In this document: positions 633 through 11,319 of the stretch, piece after piece
Position numbering within the stretch: the stretch's first letter is position 1
Layout of the letters: each line of letters begins with the position of its first letter
Source of the DNA: Accumulibacter sp.
GTDB lineage: Bacteria; Pseudomonadota; Gammaproteobacteria; Burkholderiales; Rhodocyclaceae
DNA length: 41,537 nt
NCBI RefSeq assembly: GCF_023806635.1
Contig: NZ_JAMTDQ010000003.1
Span: forward strand, 1-41,537
Reading direction: 5' to 3'
Made by a program: the position numbers and the translations under genes
Notes under the pieces: model-generated
What the model was told of the DNA's origin: nothing
The model's input: the letters and a program-made list of their open reading frames with translations, nothing else
Database searches by the model: none

Positions 633-663
633 AAAAAGCCCCGACCGAGAACGGAGGGGGCTT
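633..663 (-). terminator. intrinsic terminator of tRNA-Ile
   Basis: On the minus strand AAGCCCC (663-657) pairs with GGGGCTT (642-636), followed by a run of T. It starts only 7 nt beyond the tRNA CCA end, so it is the natural end of the tRNA-Ile transcript. In the plus direction there is no T-run after the stem, so it is directional. Confidence 0.8.
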
Positions 664-669
664 CGTGTC

Positions 670-993
670 TGGTGGGCCCGCAGGGACTTGAACCCTGGAC
701 CAAAGGATTATGCTTGCCACCACGGCTTTCGCCGCCTCTTGCGAGTTCGTGGTCTGGACTATATCTTCCCTTTACGGGCTGGCCGTCTAGTCTCTACACC
801 TTCCCCGTGCTGCCGGGGCTTGGCTCGGTATCGGCTTGTCCCGGGGGAGTTAGCTTTCACCGAATTTGACCAGTTCTACCCGTCGCCAGAATGCTTCTGG
901 CGACGGGCAACCCATCGCGAACGACCGCCCCTTGCAACAAGTGCCGGCCATTCTCGCCGAGTCCTCTGCTCTAACCAACTGAGCTACAGGCCC
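670..993 (-). tRNA. tRNA-Ile(CAT), interrupted by a group I intron
   Basis: The 5' exon is 993-960 (34 bases counting the split, through U33) and the 3' exon is 712-670, including an encoded CCA. Joined, they give a complete 77-nt cloverleaf: acceptor GGGCCTG/CGGGCCC, D arm GCTC/GAGC, anticodon stem GAGGA/TCCTT, anticodon CAT in the loop CTCATAA, and T arm CAGGG-TTCAAGT-CCCTG. This is the minor isoleucine tRNA whose C34 is converted to lysidine by TilS so that it reads AUA. The 247-base insertion sits between U33 and C34, so the anticodon is encoded wholly in the 3' exon and the transcript must splice to be usable. A terminator follows at once. A standard tRNA finder may miss the gene or report two halves. 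Confidence 0.95.
713..959 (-). ncRNA. group I intron (IC3/Azoarcus type) in tRNA-Ile anticodon loop
   Basis: Minus-strand core blocks match the known Azoarcus tRNA-Ile ribozyme closely: GGTCAAATTCGGTGAAAGCT (P3-P4), ACCGAGCCAAGC (P4'/P6), AAGGTGTAGAGACTAGACGG (P7/P3') and ATAGTCCAGACC (P7'). P4 pairs 864-859 with 829-824, and P7 pairs 792-788 with 761-757. A perfect 13-bp hairpin with a 3-nt loop (879-907) is probably P2, and a GGCGAAAGCC tetraloop stem lies in P9. The last intron base is G (position 713), as omega-G requires, and the 5' exon ends in U. No homing endonuclease or other frame is present; at 247 nt it is slightly larger than the roughly 205-nt Azoarcus intron. Self-splicing is expected from the family but not shown here. 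Confidence 0.93.
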
Positions 994-3865: not shown

Positions 3866-6166
3866 CTAGCGGACACTGATCTCGACCCGATCGTGCTGCC
3901 CGGCGTGGTCCATGACCGTGACCTGAAACGAGCCCGGCTGCGCAAAGCTCACTGTCAATGGTTGCCCTGCCGGCACGCGGCCGATCTGGCGGCCGTTGAG
4001 CAGCCAGATCAGCTCATGCTCACCGCCGCGAGCCTCGAGCCGCAGCGTCGCCGGTGGTCCGTCGCCGGCGCGGCGTATGGTTTCGCCATCGCTCAGGCCG
4101 AAGATCCGCAGGCCGTTGCCGTTGCCACCGTCGCTCGCGCTGCAGGCGGTCGTCCATGGTGGTGGCAGCGCGCGCGTGCGCAGGCCTTGGTCGAGCCAGG
4201 GTTCGAGCGCCGCCGGCCAGCGCGCCATCTCGACTGCCTGCATGCTGCCGCTGGCGCAGCCCGGGCGCACCCGTTGCCCGGTTGCCGGGTCGCGGTAGTC
4301 GGTATGGCGGGCCGGGCCCGTTCGCAGTCTGTCTGAGAAGGTGGGCGGAGCGGTATCGTTGAGAATCCAGGCGGTTCGACGCTGATGACAGAGCGCCGTC
4401 GGGGTGCCCTCGCTGCGCGTACCCAGCGGCCAGCAGATGCCCGCGCTGCTGACCGATGGCGGTGGGATGCGGGCGGCCGGCGGCGCATCGTCGATCACGG
4501 CAAAGATATCGACCAGCAGCGGGGCAGCGATGTTGGCGCCAAAGAATCCGGGGTTCGGCGTTCCGTCTGGTCGGCCGACCCAGACGCCGGCGGTGTGGCG
4601 ATCGCTGACGCCGACCGCCCAGGCATCGCGAAAACCGAAGCTGGTACCGGTCTTCCAGGCGATCCCACGGCGGCTGCCGATGCTGCCCTCGACCACCCGC
4701 GCCACCGGCCCACCGGATTCGAGGATGTCGCGAATGATGAAGGCCGCCCCTTCGCTGAGCATGCGCGACTCGACCAGCGGCGATTCGGCAAGATAACGCG
4801 GTCGGCCGCTGACACCGGCACGCGCCAGGGCGCTGTAGGCACCGACCAGGCCCTCCAGATTCACCGCCGCGCCACCAAGGATCACGCTGAGATTGGCCGT
4901 CGCTCCCGGCGGCAGTTCCAGCCTGAGACCGCCGCGCCGCAACTGCGAGACGAAGCGCTGTGGTCCCAGTCTGTCGAGCACCTCGACGGCTGGCACGTTG
5001 AGCGATCGCTGCAGCGCCTCGCTGACGCCGACCGGGCCACTGAAGCTGGCCTGGAAGTTGCCCGGCTGGTAGCCGGCGAAGGATTGCGGCACGTCGGCCA
5101 GCAGGGATTCCGAGTGGATCAGGCCTTCATCCAGCGCCAGCCCGTAGAGGAAGGGTTTCAACGCCGAACCCGGCGAGCGCGCCGCCTGCACCATGTCGAC
5201 GTGTGCGAAGCGCTCGCTGTCGCTGAAATCCGCCGAACCGGCATAGGCGCGAACCTCGAGCGTCTCGTTGTCGATCACCAGCGCCGCCATCGATGCCCGT
5301 GGCGGCAGGATGCCCAGCCGGGTGGCGAGGATTTGCTCCACCATCTGCTGCATGGCGGCGTCGACCGTGCTCTCGATGCGCGCCGCGTGCGGCTGCAAGC
5401 GCCGCAGCCGCTCGGCCAGGAGCGGCGCCAGCAGGGGTTCGCGCACGGGCTGCGCGATCACCGGTTCCTGGCGCGCGTCAGCAATCGCGCTGGCACTCCA
5501 GCGGTCCGTCATGCGCGCCAGAACCTTGTCGCGGGCGAGCCGGGCGCGCTCGGGGTGGCGATCAGGTCGCAGCAGCGACGGCGCCTGCGGCAGCGCGGCG
5601 AGGAGGGCCGCCTCGGACTCGCTCAACCGCTGCGCCGGTTTGCCGAGGTAGGCGCGGCTTGCCGCCTCGACTCCCTCGAGGACTCCACCCATCGGCGCCA
5701 GGCGAAGATAGATTTCAAGAATCTCTCGCTTGGAGCAGCGCAGTTCGATCTGCACGGCACGCACGATCTGGCGCAGCTTGCCGGCCGGCGTCCGCGGTGT
5801 CGGTTCGAGCAGACGCGCCACCTGCATGGTCAGCGTCGAACCACCGGAGACGATGCGGCCGTTCTGCAGCCAGAGCACGCCGGCACGCAGGAGTGCCCAC
5901 GGATTGACGCCCGGGTGCCACCAGAACGCCCGGTCTTCGAAGCCGATCAGGGCTTCGATGTAGCGCGGCGAAACTTCGTCGAAGCGGACCGGATGCCGCC
6001 AGATGTGCTCGCGGTCCGGGAACGCGCGCAGCGGCGTGCCGTCGCGCGCCAGGACAACCTGCGCCTGTGGCGCCTTGTGGCCTTGCAGTGGCGGCGGGAA
6101 GAGCTGGTCGGCAAGCAGCAGCAGGGTGAGCAGAGCCGCCAGCCACCACCTCGGTCGGTGGCTCAT
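3866..6166 (-). CDS. penicillin-binding protein 1C, bifunctional peptidoglycan synthase
   Basis: A 766-residue class A PBP of the PbpC type. There is an N-terminal membrane anchor (about 8-20), then a GT51 glycosyltransferase domain with GFEDRAF (catalytic E77) and GGSTLTMQVARLL (about 108-120). The transpeptidase domain carries SALK (S334-K337), SLN (388-390) and KTGT (505-508), so both active sites look intact. The last 75 residues resemble the BiPBP_C domain that marks PbpC. It polymerises and crosslinks glycan strands on the periplasmic face of the inner membrane. Its ATG overlaps the stop codon of the upstream alpha-2-macroglobulin gene (ATGA), implying translational coupling. This pairing is a known conserved one (pbpC-yfhM in E. 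coli). Confidence 0.95.
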   Translation of the reverse strand: MSHRPRWWLAALLTLLLLADQLFPPPLQGHKAPQAQVVLARDGTPLRAFPDREHIWRHPVRFDEVSPRYIEALIGFEDRAFWWHPGVNPWALLRAGVLWLQNGRIVSGGSTLTMQVARLLEPTPRTPAGKLRQIVRAVQIELRCSKREILEIYLRLAPMGGVLEGVEAASRAYLGKPAQRLSESEAALLAALPQAPSLLRPDRHPERARLARDKVLARMTDRWSASAIADARQEPVIAQPVREPLLAPLLAERLRRLQPHAARIESTVDAAMQQMVEQILATRLGILPPRASMAALVIDNETLEVRAYAGSADFSDSERFAHVDMVQAARSPGSALKPFLYGLALDEGLIHSESLLADVPQSFAGYQPGNFQASFSGPVGVSEALQRSLNVPAVEVLDRLGPQRFVSQLRRGGLRLELPPGATANLSVILGGAAVNLEGLVGAYSALARAGVSGRPRYLAESPLVESRMLSEGAAFIIRDILESGGPVARVVEGSIGSRRGIAWKTGTSFGFRDAWAVGVSDRHTAGVWVGRPDGTPNPGFFGANIAAPLLVDIFAVIDDAPPAARIPPPSVSSAGICWPLGTRSEGTPTALCHQRRTAWILNDTAPPTFSDRLRTGPARHTDYRDPATGQRVRPGCASGSMQAVEMARWPAALEPWLDQGLRTRALPPPWTTACSASDGGNGNGLRIFGLSDGETIRRAGDGPPATLRLEARGGEHELIWLLNGRQIGRVPAGQPLTVSFAQPGSFQVTVMDHAGQHDRVEISVR

Positions 6167-9100
6167 TGTCTGCCGCTGCCGCCATCCGTCCCACTGTCGC
6201 TGGCGATCAGCAGCACCTCGTCGCCGCCGGCGAGACCATGGATCTGCGGCTGGTACATGTCTTCCGCATAGGTCGGCGGAACCACGAAACGACCCGGGGT
6301 GACGGCGCGCACGCGGTAGAAGAACTGCATCTTGCCGGCGAGCCGCGCGGCCACGACGAAGCGGTCATCGCGAAACTCGACATGCCTGATGTTGGCGTTC
6401 TGCATGACCTGCCGCGGATCGACGCCATCGATGCTGATGGCCGACTGCTCACCCTGCACCAGGTTGGCGTTCTCGATCTCGAGGCCGGCCGGCACGTGGT
6501 CGACGACCAGACCGTTGACATAGCGCCCGCTGCTGCTGACCTGCAGGCGGACGATCGCACTCTCGCCGACGCGCAGGGTCTTCTTGCCGAGCGGCTGCCC
6601 GTCGGCGGTGAACCAGTCGCGCTGCAGGTCGAAGGCATCGCGCCGTGCCGTCGGCAGTCGTGCCGGGTTGCCCGTCAGGTTGAGTTCGACGAACAGCCGC
6701 TCCTTGTGCGTGTTCCTGATGCTCACCCCACCGGCAACCTCGGCTGCCGACAGCGCCTGGAACTGCGTTCCGCGACCGCCGATCGCCTGCGCCTTGCCTG
6801 CCGAAAGAAGTTCCGCAGACCATTCACCGGCGGTGGGGCCGGTGAACCCGCGACCGAGGAGGAAGAGCGCGAGTTGCTCCTGCGTGCTGAAATGGCGCCG
6901 CTCGTCGACGGCAGCGGCGACCTGGCGCAACAGATCCTCCCGACCGTCGGCCTTGACCTGGTGGCGGTCGAGTAGGACGTAGATCAGCGCCCAGTCGCGC
7001 AGGTTGCTGCCGTAGTCGCCCCACCAGGCGCCATCCGGTCCGCCACGCGGCTTGCGGATGCCGGCATCGATGGCGCTTGCGGCACGTGCTTCGTCACCCA
7101 TCAGCCGCAAGGCAAGCCCGAGTTGCACCAACGCCAGACCCGAATGCGCGGCTGCACGCGATTCGTGCAACTGGCGCAGCGTCGTCAGCGGTGCCCTGCC
7201 ATGGCGGGCGAGCACGTAGGCGCCGTAAGCGAGAACAGCGAAACGTCCGGGGCCCGCGTAGCGATGGTCGTTCCAGATCGCGTTCTGGTTGTGGTCGACG
7301 GTTCCCGTTGGCAGGCTCGCGACACCTTCCTGCAGCCCCTTGAGGAGAAAATCCAGCGCCCGCTTCTCGACTTCGGGGGGCACGTTGAAACCCTGTTCGC
7401 GGGTATCGAGCAGAAAGTTGGCGACATAGGCCGTCAGCCAGTACTGGTACTCGGCGACGTTGCCCCACAGGCTGAAGCCGCCGTTCGGCGCCTGCATGCC
7501 GGCGAGGCGGGCGATCGCCTTGTCGAGGAGCTCGGCGCGTTGGGTCGGCGTGTAGGTCTTGAGACCGAACTGCCTCGCCGCTGCTTCGTCGACGAAGAGG
7601 TGTGGGTAGGCGCTGCTCGTCGTCTGCTCGGCGCAGCCGTAAGGGTAGCTCAGCAGCCCACGCACGGCGCTGCGCACGTCGATCGGTGCCCGGTTGGAGA
7701 TGGCCAGAGTGGCGTACACGCTCGACCGCAGCAGTCCGCCAAGCTCCGCCTCGCGGAGTTCGACCCTCTCACCGGGGGCGATCGTCATCCGCCTGACCAC
7801 CGACTGGCGCGGCGTCGGCGCCTGCACGAGGAGCGGGAACGTGCGCTCGATCCGCCGCAACGGACTGTCGACGCGCACCTTCACTTCGTTCGGACCGAGC
7901 GCGTTACCGGCCTCGATCGGGATCTGCAGGATGCGCCTCTGCCGTTCCTGGAGCGAGAACCGCTGTTCGCCGTTCCTGATCAGCAGGCCGTCGCGACTGC
8001 TCAGCGCGATCTTCACCTCCTGCTCCCTGCCGGCAAGGTTCTGGACTTCGAGAGCCAGCACCGCGCTGTCGCCGGTCGACAGAAAACGCGGCGTCGCCAG
8101 TTCGACGACGAGTGGCGCAGCAACGGTGACCTCCGCCTCCTGCATGCCGAAGCGGTCACCGGTGGCGACCACGGCCATCAGGCGCAGGCTGCCGTTGAAG
8201 TCGGGGACCGGCAGGGAGACCTCGGCTTCGCCCTTTTCGTCGAGCACCACCGGCCCACTGAAGAGATCGACCAGCCGCAGCTTCTTCGGCAGGCTGCGCG
8301 TGGCCTTCGGTGCCGCGTCACCGCCAAACTTCAGCTTGCCTTTCCGGCCGTCCATCTTTTCGATCAGGCGTCCGTAGACGTCGTAGGCGTCGGCTCCGTA
8401 GCGCAGCTTGGCAAAGAAGAAGGCGAAGGGGTCCGGGCTCGCGTAACGGGTGATGTTGAGGATGCCGACGTCCACCGCCGACAGGGTCAACAGCGCCTGC
8501 TGGGCGCCCGCCTCGGGCACCTTGACGCGGACCTTGAGGAGCTGTTCGGGTTCCATCCTGGTCGGTGCCTCGATTGCCACCGCGAGCCGGCGGTTGCTGC
8601 GCTCGAGCGGCACGTGGAGCAGCCCGAGGGCGCGCGCCGGGGTCACCTTGTCGCCGCTGCCAGGACGCAGGACCATCACCGAAACGTACAGATCATGCCG
8701 CTGCCAGTCCCTGGCGAGAGGGATGTCGATCGTCCTGCCGTCGGCACCGACCGACAGGCGCCGCACCCACAGCGCCCGGTCGCCCTCGACGGTGACCAGC
8801 GCCTGCCCGGCATGCGGCGGAACGATCGTCAGCCGTGCCGTCTCGCCAAGCGAGTAGGCGGGCTTGTCCAGCTTGAGCGCGACCCGGTCCGGGCGCACCC
8901 CTTGCGCTTCGTCGTCCTTCGCGGCCCAGCCGGCGTAGAAGCGGAAGCGCATCGTCTGGCGGGTGGCGGGATCGAGGATCTCGACACGGTAGCGGCCGTA
9001 CTTGACCGGCAGGCTGAGCTTGCCACGGCCACCGGCCGGCACGGTCACCTGTGTCGTGGCGACCAGTTCGTCGGTTTCGGTGAAGCCCGAGTTCCAGCCA

Positions 9101-11319
9101 CGCTGATCGTCGAAGCGCCAGTAGTAGTTGCGGTTCTCGCGGAACATGCGTACCGGCAGCGCCGCTCCGGCCTTCAGGTTGCCATCGGCGTCCGCCCGGA
9201 CGACCTCGAACTCGGCGGCGGATGACTCGCGCGCATAGGCCCCGACGAACAGCGGCCGCACTCCGACCAGCACCGTTGCGGGCCACCAGATACGTTCGAC
9301 ACTGCGCACCACCGGCCGCCCACCGCTTTCCAGCAGGCTCAGCGTCGTGCGCACGACGAACGGCGAGCGTCGTTTGCCAACCGCCTCCAGGTCGACGCCG
9401 AGTGCCGCCCGGCCCTGCTCGTCGAGCCGCTGTTCCGGCAGTTCACTGCGTGTCCTGACATTGTCTTCGTCGGCGTCCCCGAAGACGAAGCCCGGCAGCT
9501 TCTGCGGCAACGGGTTGCGACTGCGTTCGCTGGTGGCGACGCCGAGCAGCCGGTTGCCGGCCGCCGGGGCACCGTAGAGGTAGCGGCCGCTGACTTCGAT
9601 TCGCCACTCCTCCTCACCCGCCAGCCGCTCGCTGCCCGTCGACAGCTCGAGCCGCATCCGTTCCGGCAGGAACTCCTCGACCGCGAACGCCATGCTGGTT
9701 GCCGCCAGCCTGGCCGCCGGATCGGCACGCAGTTCCAGGAGCCATGAACCAGTGGCGGCATCGGGGGGCAACTCGACCGGCCGCCGGTAGTAACCGGCGG
9801 TGCCGTCTTCCGCCCGCCAGCTCGCGGTCCACTGCGGCTTGCCATCGGGACGGCGAAGGATCGCCTGGATCGGCTGTGCCGGTACCGGCCGGCCGTCGGC
9901 GTCACGCGCAAACACCGAAACCTCGAAGCGCTCGCCAGGCCGGTAGAGATTGCGGCCGCTGTAGGCGAACAGGCGTACCGGCGAATACGGCATGCCGGCG
10001 ACGTCGAACTCGGCGAGATCGAGAGCCGGTTCCTTGAGAGCGATCAACGACATCTGCCCGCCCTTGCGCGCCAGCAGCACACGTGCAGCGGCCGGCTTCT
10101 CGGCGAAGGCTGCGCGACCGTCACGGTCGGTTTGTGCGCTGCCGAGCGAGCGACCCTGACGGTCGATCCAGCTCACCTCGACGCCAGCCAGTGCCTGCCC
10201 ATCGCGCAGCGAACTGACGTAGGCATCGGCACCGCGATTCGGATACTGCCGCAGGTGCAGACCCAGATCGCTGACGTAGAAGTAGGTCGTCTGGTAGTCG
10301 TGGCGGAAGCGGTTCGGCTGCGACATCACCGCCACGTAGACACCCGGCTCGCGCAGCGCCGCAATGTCTTCGACCGGAATGAAGGTGACGCTGCGCCGGT
10401 TCGCCTTCTGTTCGGTCGGAAAGCGGCCGACGAAGCTGCTGCTCGTCATGCGGTGGATCTGATCCAGATCCCAGCTGCCAACGGCACCCTTGAGGCGGCT
10501 GCCGCTGTCGGGATGGCCATCGTCGGCGTCGCTCTCCTGGTCGGCAACAGCCTCGCCGGAACGGGTATCGACAGGGGCGCGGTCAGGAGCAGCGGGGCCG
10601 GCGATGACCTGTTCGAGGAATCTCGGCAGTTGATCCTCCTTGACCTTGAGGAACTGGATGTCCACCTCGGGGACATTCACCGTCGTCACCGGCAGACCGC
10701 CAGCCTGTCCCGCGGGCAGGACCATGCCCCGGCTGGCGAAGTAGAAGGCTGGGGCGACCGCCGCGGTCAGGATCGAAAAACGCACCTCGCCGTCGAGCTG
10801 GCTGCCATTGCGTGCCTTCAGACCGGGTTGCACACGTACGACGTAGCGGGTCTGGGGCTTGACGTGCGGAAAGAACAGCAGGCGCGGGTTGTCTCCGACG
10901 ACCCAGGCACCGGCCACCGGTTTGCCGTCGACGAGCGCATCGTCGTTGGCGACGCGGTGGCCTTCACCGGCAGGAGCGAGTGTCGCCGCGCCTTCCCCAT
11001 CCTCGCCGTCCGTCTCCCCATCGCGAACTGCCGCTGCCGTCGCCTCGGCCGGCATTTCGAGCACGCGCAGGAAGCGCTCGTGATCGCCCTTGGCATCGAG
11101 AGGCAGACTGAAGGAGACAGCCAGTGCCGGCGATCCGTCCAGTTCCCGGTGCGTTCCGTCGATCACCGCGAACGGCGTGTCGCCGGGATCGACCACTTCG
11201 GTTCCGTCATCCGTCAGGTGGCCGATTGCCAGCAAGCCACCCACCGCGACGACGATGCCGACGAGCAGCGCCACCGTCTGCTGCAGCCGGCGCCGCGCGA
11301 GCTGCCTTGTTGTCTGCAT
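6163..11319 (-). CDS. bacterial alpha-2-macroglobulin (YfhM-like protease trap)
   Basis: A 1718-residue periplasmic protein of the bacterial alpha-2-macroglobulin family, a little longer than E. coli YfhM. These proteins trap invading proteases by covalent capture and are thought to protect the cell when PbpC is repairing the wall. The thioester motif CAEQ is intact (C1229, Q1232, in the context YGCAEQTTSSAYPHLF), so it is the thioester-bearing class. MG-type beta domains precede it (for example YRPGERFEVSVFARD), and a helical thioester domain and receptor-binding-like end follow. The N-terminus is RRRLQQ followed by a hydrophobic helix (about 15-35) with no lipobox cysteine, so it is probably held by a signal anchor, not as a lipoprotein. 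The start is supported by GGAGAGGACC before the ATG. Confidence 0.95.
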   Translation of the reverse strand: MQTTRQLARRRLQQTVALLVGIVVAVGGLLAIGHLTDDGTEVVDPGDTPFAVIDGTHRELDGSPALAVSFSLPLDAKGDHERFLRVLEMPAEATAAAVRDGETDGEDGEGAATLAPAGEGHRVANDDALVDGKPVAGAWVVGDNPRLLFFPHVKPQTRYVVRVQPGLKARNGSQLDGEVRFSILTAAVAPAFYFASRGMVLPAGQAGGLPVTTVNVPEVDIQFLKVKEDQLPRFLEQVIAGPAAPDRAPVDTRSGEAVADQESDADDGHPDSGSRLKGAVGSWDLDQIHRMTSSSFVGRFPTEQKANRRSVTFIPVEDIAALREPGVYVAVMSQPNRFRHDYQTTYFYVSDLGLHLRQYPNRGADAYVSSLRDGQALAGVEVSWIDRQGRSLGSAQTDRDGRAAFAEKPAAARVLLARKGGQMSLIALKEPALDLAEFDVAGMPYSPVRLFAYSGRNLYRPGERFEVSVFARDADGRPVPAQPIQAILRRPDGKPQWTASWRAEDGTAGYYRRPVELPPDAATGSWLLELRADPAARLAATSMAFAVEEFLPERMRLELSTGSERLAGEEEWRIEVSGRYLYGAPAAGNRLLGVATSERSRNPLPQKLPGFVFGDADEDNVRTRSELPEQRLDEQGRAALGVDLEAVGKRRSPFVVRTTLSLLESGGRPVVRSVERIWWPATVLVGVRPLFVGAYARESSAAEFEVVRADADGNLKAGAALPVRMFRENRNYYWRFDDQRGWNSGFTETDELVATTQVTVPAGGRGKLSLPVKYGRYRVEILDPATRQTMRFRFYAGWAAKDDEAQGVRPDRVALKLDKPAYSLGETARLTIVPPHAGQALVTVEGDRALWVRRLSVGADGRTIDIPLARDWQRHDLYVSVMVLRPGSGDKVTPARALGLLHVPLERSNRRLAVAIEAPTRMEPEQLLKVRVKVPEAGAQQALLTLSAVDVGILNITRYASPDPFAFFFAKLRYGADAYDVYGRLIEKMDGRKGKLKFGGDAAPKATRSLPKKLRLVDLFSGPVVLDEKGEAEVSLPVPDFNGSLRLMAVVATGDRFGMQEAEVTVAAPLVVELATPRFLSTGDSAVLALEVQNLAGREQEVKIALSSRDGLLIRNGEQRFSLQERQRRILQIPIEAGNALGPNEVKVRVDSPLRRIERTFPLLVQAPTPRQSVVRRMTIAPGERVELREAELGGLLRSSVYATLAISNRAPIDVRSAVRGLLSYPYGCAEQTTSSAYPHLFVDEAAARQFGLKTYTPTQRAELLDKAIARLAGMQAPNGGFSLWGNVAEYQYWLTAYVANFLLDTREQGFNVPPEVEKRALDFLLKGLQEGVASLPTGTVDHNQNAIWNDHRYAGPGRFAVLAYGAYVLARHGRAPLTTLRQLHESRAAAHSGLALVQLGLALRLMGDEARAASAIDAGIRKPRGGPDGAWWGDYGSNLRDWALIYVLLDRHQVKADGREDLLRQVAAAVDERRHFSTQEQLALFLLGRGFTGPTAGEWSAELLSAGKAQAIGGRGTQFQALSAAEVAGGVSIRNTHKERLFVELNLTGNPARLPTARRDAFDLQRDWFTADGQPLGKKTLRVGESAIVRLQVSSSGRYVNGLVVDHVPAGLEIENANLVQGEQSAISIDGVDPRQVMQNANIRHVEFRDDRFVVAARLAGKMQFFYRVRAVTPGRFVVPPTYAEDMYQPQIHGLAGGDEVLLIASDSGTDGGSGRQ

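Follow-up and report, generated by a model that had tools for sequence, protein, structure and literature searches.

We conclude with high confidence that, in the window (the whole 41,537-nt stretch of Accumulibacter DNA analyzed here), a ribozyme that would splice itself out interrupts an apparently single tRNA-Ile2(CAU) gene after U33, and that it belongs to a class shared with Burkholderiales and phages. What stands out most is the set of phage relatives: viral contigs that carry the same intron class at the same site, and an HNH ORF placed in the P1 extension, are new here. At their default settings, ARAGORN and Rfam both overlook this apparently essential tRNA gene.

Run with introns allowed, ARAGORN returns a single tRNA(CAU) that is interrupted by 247 nt after exon base 34; with one additional base in the D loop, this position corresponds to U33 (Table 1). 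The earlier note had read the minus strand as a 247-nt intron splitting the anticodon loop, and its coordinates proved exact; its expectation that removing the intron would restore a tRNA(CAU) with CCA was likewise confirmed when the program was run on the spliced sequence. At default settings, ARAGORN detected no tRNA anywhere in the window. Taken alone, the window copy would allow the junction to shift by one C; relatives whose intron starts with T, 49 of the 56 distinct introns of the U33 class, settle it as U33|C34. ARAGORN does not demand a G at the end of the intron (our later extraction rules demanded the omega-G), and it placed the junction after G in 12 of 15 intact U33 loci, window included, picking another split in the remaining three. 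It sometimes misplaced the anticodons of intron-bearing tRNAs (L046, L052, L055, L405 and L437), and our host tRNA counts are therefore not based on its anticodons. The source assembly comprises 4.47 Mb in 119 contigs, with the window on contig 3. Elsewhere in the window we observed a bacterial alpha-2-macroglobulin gene (6163-11319, minus strand), adjoined at 3866-6166 by a gene for a penicillin-binding protein with transglycosylase, transpeptidase and BiPBP_C domains.

Table 1. Features of the interrupted tRNA-Ile2 gene, in window coordinates.
Feature	Positions	Strand	Basis or remark
5' exon of tRNA-Ile2(CAU), last base U33	960..993	-	ARAGORN -i
Group I intron, 247 nt	713..959	-	ARAGORN -i; RF00028, 42.5 bits; relatives
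P1 extension: helix GAAUGGCC/GGUCGUUC and apical hairpin	913..959	-	fold
Internal guide sequence GGGUU	909..913	-	invariant in 27/27 aligned rows
P2, 13 bp, 3-nt loop, no GNRA loop	879..907	-	fold
P3, 5' strand (partner 779-784)	868..873	-	6 pairs, each 132/132
P4, 5' strand (partner 825-829)	859..863	-	
P5 and loop	834..854	-	third pair weak; 79.0% of cells paired in the helix as a whole
P4, 3' strand	825..829	-	
P6 and P6a	798..824	-	
P7, 5' strand (partner 757-761)	788..792	-	5 pairs, each 132/132; P7 presumed, by analogy, to be the guanosine site
P3, 3' strand	779..784	-	pairing across 132 introns
Truncated P8, 3 bp	768..778	-	P8 segment 17 nt in 30/30 of class
P7, 3' strand	757..761	-	pairing across 132 introns
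P9.0 (749-752 with 717-720), P9a (736-745), P9b (723-734, GAAA loop)	717..752	-	
Omega-G, final intron base	713..713	-	ARAGORN -i; relatives
3' exon of tRNA-Ile2, anticodon CAU at 710-712, encoded CCA	670..712	-	
Terminator-like stem-loop and T run 3' of the tRNA	639..656	-	1 found; weak, since shuffles average 0.8 such structures

The group I core that had been recognized from the letters alone is borne out by the Rfam model and by covariation, and the omega-G by ARAGORN and the relatives. RF00028 matches 739-923 (minus strand) with 42.5 bits and an E value of 1.9e-9, and at E 0.001 the window intron is its only match in the whole genome. The score misses the gathering score of 50, which is a threshold and not a defining trait; taken literally, the earlier note's refuting outcome of no above-threshold hit came true at the Rfam cut-off, but the E value and the covariation outweigh it. 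The window intron contains the P3-P7 pseudoknotted core with P4-P6, and the omega-G precedes its 3' splice site, both group I traits. Its minimum free energy lies below that of 200 out of 200 dinucleotide shuffles (z -4.11). Across 27 aligned introns, 90.3% of 1957 cells are paired compared to 86.8% in shuffles, a value that is high because most columns barely vary, and sliding the partners lowers pairing to 27.1-48.0%. Both-sided changes were found in 25 of 73 pairs (15.0 in shuffles), and no shuffle out of 500 equalled the real structure on four of five measures, with 2 out of 500 doing so on the fifth (pair types). Among these 27 introns P6, P7 and P9.0 are invariant and P3 is nearly so, and covariation in these four helices therefore comes only from more distant introns. 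Across the 132 introns of all hosts, every P3 and P7 pair is present without exception, with compensatory changes; of the four P9.0 pairs, two are found in just 95 and 83 of 128. From its similarity to tRNA introns, we presume the intron to be IC3-like.

The 5' part of the intron is organized around the guide sequence. GGGUU pairs with GACU of the 5' exon in P1, with a U33-G pair at the 5' splice site, a group I trait found in 27 out of 27 introns. When the last exon bases were folded together with the P1 region, U33 paired with a G of GGGUUG in all 54 introns tested (out of 61 distinct ones; two were too long and five, all viral, had no GGGTTG). In the window fold, this guide pairing gives a single long P1. 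In addition, C34 can pair with the first guide G to form P10, and AUG can pair with CAU in the window, its A and U varying among relatives. An alternative P1, in which GACU pairs with GGUC at 922-925, is attractive in the window alone and was rejected because GGGUU is invariant in the 27 aligned rows and pairs U33 in all 54 introns folded. The longer 5' region to which the earlier note pointed is present, and we reinterpret it as an extension of P1 with the guide sequence at its end. Its outer helix shows both-sided changes in relatives; its apical hairpin is not conserved (42.7% of cells paired, 27 introns). The intron does have its own P2, a hairpin of 13 bp capped by a 3-nt loop. We also considered a tertiary contact that would join a GAAA loop of P9a to a motif in the P1 extension, CCUAAG/UAUGG, which we take to be receptor-like. 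Among 56 distinct introns the final pattern found both in 29, neither in 13, the loop only in 12 and the receptor only in 2 (24, 15, 17 and 0 in an earlier strict table; 27, 15, 14 and 0 in a relaxed one), with the receptor pattern broadened after the sequences were inspected. The window copy has neither element, and the contact is a lead only, because a single independent pair was found on the tree (on starred branches; three on all branches; sign test, p-value=1).

The source genome has 36 tRNA-model matches, and ARAGORN there together with the window gives 36 distinct tRNAs. Three of them have the anticodon CAU, namely the interrupted Ile2, an initiator and an elongator-Met type; we assigned the types by sequence. 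Since this assembly is without some tRNAs, we also examined a single-contig relative of the same genus (G158), whose intron is 99% identical to the window copy. Here, 46 tRNA matches and 41 distinct tRNAs, the intron gene included, again contain three CAU tRNAs (Met, fMet and Ile2); no tRNA-Ile(UAU) was found, and the isoleucine tRNAs are Ile(GAU) and the interrupted CAU gene only. A CAU anticodon-arm pattern found no uninterrupted Ile2-type gene in any of the five genomes tried. TilS is encoded in all 28 genomes of the genus, in 27 of them above cut-off. The CAU anticodon, the separate Met and fMet genes, the presence of TilS and the lack of tRNA-Ile(UAU) identify the gene as tRNA-Ile2. It had been claimed to be the sole gene for an AUA-reading tRNA, which apparently holds, given the tRNA set of the single-contig relative and the anticodon-arm pattern. 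AUA is rare, with 2 of 118 isoleucine codons in five window genes. Judging from sequence, the cell very likely needs intron splicing to read this codon, a dependence that is well supported because the single-contig relative has TilS and no other AUA-reading tRNA gene.

We matched the intron in 25 out of 28 genomes of the genus Candidatus Accumulibacter, its own included, and in 22 of 23 good assemblies; the three genomes without a match are all less complete (83-90%). A literature search returned no paper for Accumulibacter. In two genomes of the genus (G125 and G246), tRNA-Leu(UAA) is interrupted as well, by a further group I intron (L209 and L210). The window intron has matches in 37 of 297 genomes of the family, and the loci fetched hold introns after U33 of tRNA-Ile2, after U34 of tRNA-Thr(UGU) and tRNA-Leu(UAA), and after U36 of tRNA-Ile2. 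The introns in tRNA-Thr(UGU), to our knowledge not known as a bacterial group I intron host, occur in two family relatives and a Thiobacillus MAG (L056, L057 and L098). A scan of named genomes, a set shaped by the search pattern, gave at least 119 stretches, with many tRNA-Leu introns among the matches listed and, likewise among those listed, U33-site copies in Burkholderia, Paraburkholderia, Aquitalea, Vogesella, Silvimonas and Rhodoferax. No intron was parsed in 20 of 152 loci, some off-target and some cut, and these were left out. Three loci from Lewinella (Saprospiraceae; L088, L129 and L160) have introns after U33 of tRNA-Leu(UAA), in which the GGGTTG of the Ile class precedes the core and the stretch ahead of it is very long; they possibly bridge the Leu and Ile hosts.

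In the order, 32 of 399 genomes match the U33-intron pattern. Reading the matched letters left true U33 introns in 17 genomes from 11 families, the other 15 matches being tRNA-Lys-like or intact tRNA-Ile sequences. Sixteen carriers were traced to the 3' exon, and the seventeenth (G587) has no locus. Intact tRNA-Ile2 was found in 315 of the 399 genomes, with 68 matching neither form, and is missing in 16 of the 17 carriers; the exception (G438) has intact and interrupted tRNA-Ile2 together. Synteny is partial, since the upstream Cys/Met PLP enzyme gene lies near the tRNA in some loci only (19 of those examined, many of which are short).

The core pattern matched at least 119 stretches of viral contigs; with one further locus (L071) added, 101 of 121 matches, among those listed, lie inside an ARAGORN tRNA model. 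A CAU-specific viral scan gave 26 stretches, of which 18 parse as interrupted CAU tRNAs. Twelve of these 18, representing six distinct introns, have the GGGUUG guide and the short P8, and these viral copies are inserted at the same U33 site as the window intron. One (L405) has as neighbors a DNA polymerase (PHROGs, 1040 bits), a UvsX-like recombinase and eight other tRNAs; a sibling (L437), in agreement with it in 94% of 195 columns, has a clamp-loader gene and twelve further tRNAs nearby. By our reading of the replication genes, both contigs appear to be T4-type. The introns of L431 and L432 are one and the same, with a GC content of 0.64-0.65; none of three proteins tested on the L432 contig has a PHROGs match, and these two contigs are probably bacterial, so that five of the six distinct viral-contig introns are likely from phages. 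In a tree with a midpoint root only, the five form one group (support 98/99) inside the side that holds the Rhodocyclaceae introns (98/98). An annotated phage collection gave no match to the window intron and only partial matches to the L405 intron, none covering 80%. The upstream protein has no homologs in the viral contigs.

Some of the viral introns encode endonucleases. The L437 intron contains an antisense 122-aa HNH ORF at intron positions 14-382, upstream of the guide and in the P1 extension, and the same placement is seen in L440, on a viral contig where four tested proteins matched no hallmark family. HNH ORFs also occur in introns without the GGGUUG guide (L071 and L439). PHROGs assigned all four ORFs to HNH endonuclease (E 5.9e-18 to 1.5e-33), and Pfam found HNH in only two of the four, below cut-off. 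In the window copy, the P1 extension forms a hairpin where L437 and L440 hold the ORF. Two candidates of the first viral scan, which gave three contigs, were not introns on inspection (L070 and L072). The third, on a 79-kb IMG/VR contig (L071, 5401-7261), has three tRNA genes with group I introns, in Arg(UCU), CAU and Leu(UAA) according to ARAGORN, all slightly above the Rfam gathering score; its CAU intron carries the antisense HNH ORF. Further viral loci (L311-L429) have many intron-bearing tRNAs, mostly Leu(UAA) and also Arg, Lys, Asn and Thr (unverified ARAGORN calls), with some introns of about 690-720 nt that could hold ORFs.

We propose that, in the precursor, GACU of the 5' exon would pair with GGUU of the guide sequence, guanosine attack after U33 would free the 5' exon, and the freed exon would attack after the omega-G, aided by P10 between C34 and the first guide G. 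The joined exons would give tRNA-Ile2, from which TilS would then make the AUA reader. This order of splicing steps is established group I chemistry. The bacterial copies may descend from, or have exchanged with, mobile phage-type introns with an HNH ORF; splicing itself, homing and the direction of transfer are what we infer from the sequences.

It is very improbable that the window holds a decayed, inactive intron inside a tRNA pseudogene: the sub-gathering Rfam score would suit such decay, but exons and core are intact, the intron recurs in nearly all genomes of the genus, and the single-contig relative offers no other gene for reading AUA. The window copy has no encoded endonuclease, the mark of a homing intron, and no recognizable protein gene. 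At 247 nt it is too short for phage-type ORFs (at least 122 aa) and hence without an HNH ORF, and we see no HNH relic, because neither Pfam nor PHROGs has a match for the plus-strand frame at 520-2361, which runs antisense across the intron. We infer a mobile, phage-shared intron lineage that was domesticated in Accumulibacter. Specifically, we see an even chance that a homing lineage shared by phages, some of them T4-type, and Betaproteobacteria, aimed at the tRNA-Ile2 anticodon loop after U33, with HNH in the P1 extension and the tertiary clamp between P2 and P8 lost, went on to lose its enzyme in Accumulibacter, retained only the P1 hairpin and became nearly fixed there in an essential tRNA gene. 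That the intron is an old, vertically inherited bacterial one, acquired from bacteria by phages in which the HNH gene came later, is a serious possibility to which we lean less; it agrees with the near fixation in the genus and with the nesting of the five phage introns within the Rhodocyclaceae-holding side of the unrooted tree, and sits poorly with the patchy occurrence in the order, which fits repeated transfer or repeated loss. The phage relatives offer a possible vehicle for the spread of small ORF-less tRNA introns, an old question.

The earlier note had likened the core to the Azoarcus tRNA-Ile ribozyme, yet the two are no close relatives, differing in site, guide, P2, P8 and tree position. 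The Azoarcus BH72 intron shares with the window the tRNA-Ile host, the general core and the P9 GAAA loop. Azoarcus-type introns, however, are inserted after U36 and not after U33, and have a P2 GAAA and a long P8, neither of which is found in the 247-nt window intron; the Azoarcus intron itself is about 205 nt long. A 205-nt U36 intron in our set (L066) is presumably, by length and sequence, the Azoarcus intron or nearly so. In Azoarcus, the P2 GAAA loop docks in P8, and we take the long P8 to be its receptor; the U33 class would therefore have lost this clamp. Among 129 distinct introns, the P8 segment measures 17 nt in every one of the 30 from the U33 Ile class; the 99 others all have segments of 28-66 nt. 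A GAAA string occurs in the P2 segment of none of the 30 compared to all 99, the segment being taken from the guide in the U33 class and, for the others, as the 38 nt directly upstream of P3. In 90 of the 99, GAAA forms a hairpin loop on at least 2 bp. It is absent in 15 of 16 order-wide introns (12 of them new to the set); in the sixteenth (L297) we read it as located within a stem. The Azoarcus guide binds CAU (PMC6274277).

A kinship with the Azoarcus-type introns within one Ile clade nevertheless has some points in its favor, namely the same host tRNA, the same bacterial family and an AU test that does not reject a single clade of all Ile introns (p-value=0.235). We consider it unlikely, as insertion site and guide differ, the P2 GAAA and long P8 are missing from the window class, and the Azoarcus-type rows form a separate group (support 100/99). 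None of the intron trees is rooted, many of their branches are open, and one of them splits the U33 class into clades of 21 and 11 rows. Two independent origins of this class were considered and set aside; a single clade is allowed by the AU test (p-value=0.304 with 32 rows, 0.433 with 52), and a single origin is favored because guide and short P8 are shared.

The tRNA-Leu(UAA) introns of Proteobacteria share the core and many helices with the window intron and are inserted one base off, after U34; they differ in host and guide and in having a P2 GAAA and a long P8. Group I introns in tRNA-Leu(UAA) occur in Cyanobacteria as well. The claim of a new natural relative does not stand as to kind, since the tRNAscan-SE 2.0 paper already describes group I introns from Burkholderia and Acidovorax in tRNA-Ile2, in a text that gives neither their site nor their structure in the part available (PMC8450103); the window intron is a distinct variant of this known kind by site and architecture. 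In site, GGGUUG guide and 17-nt P8 segment, the U33 copies that we found in Burkholderia and Paraburkholderia match the window copy, which belongs to the Rhodocyclaceae group and differs from the Burkholderia type by both-sided changes in P3, P4, P5, P6, P7 and P8. For phages, a 2014 review, in the passages available, placed all introns then known in protein genes, and passages from further papers do not speak of group I introns in phage tRNA genes; among the titles that our literature searches on phage tRNAs and introns returned, none concerns such introns in tRNAs of T4-like phages. The Lak megaphages have introns in phage tRNA genes, as do the viral contigs here, and the paper describing them terms them enigmatic, its authors knowing of no earlier report (PMC6784885). 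Going by that description, the phage introns here differ in being recognizable group I introns, four CAU ones with HNH ORFs, which raises the possibility that the enigmatic phage tRNA introns may be group I introns. Overall, this tRNA hosts two insertion types, of which the well-known Azoarcus tRNA-Ile intron represents one; the second, at U33, spans many families of the order and is built without the P2 GAAA and long P8, and thereby offers a natural test of what the P2-P8 contact and the P1 extension contribute to splicing.
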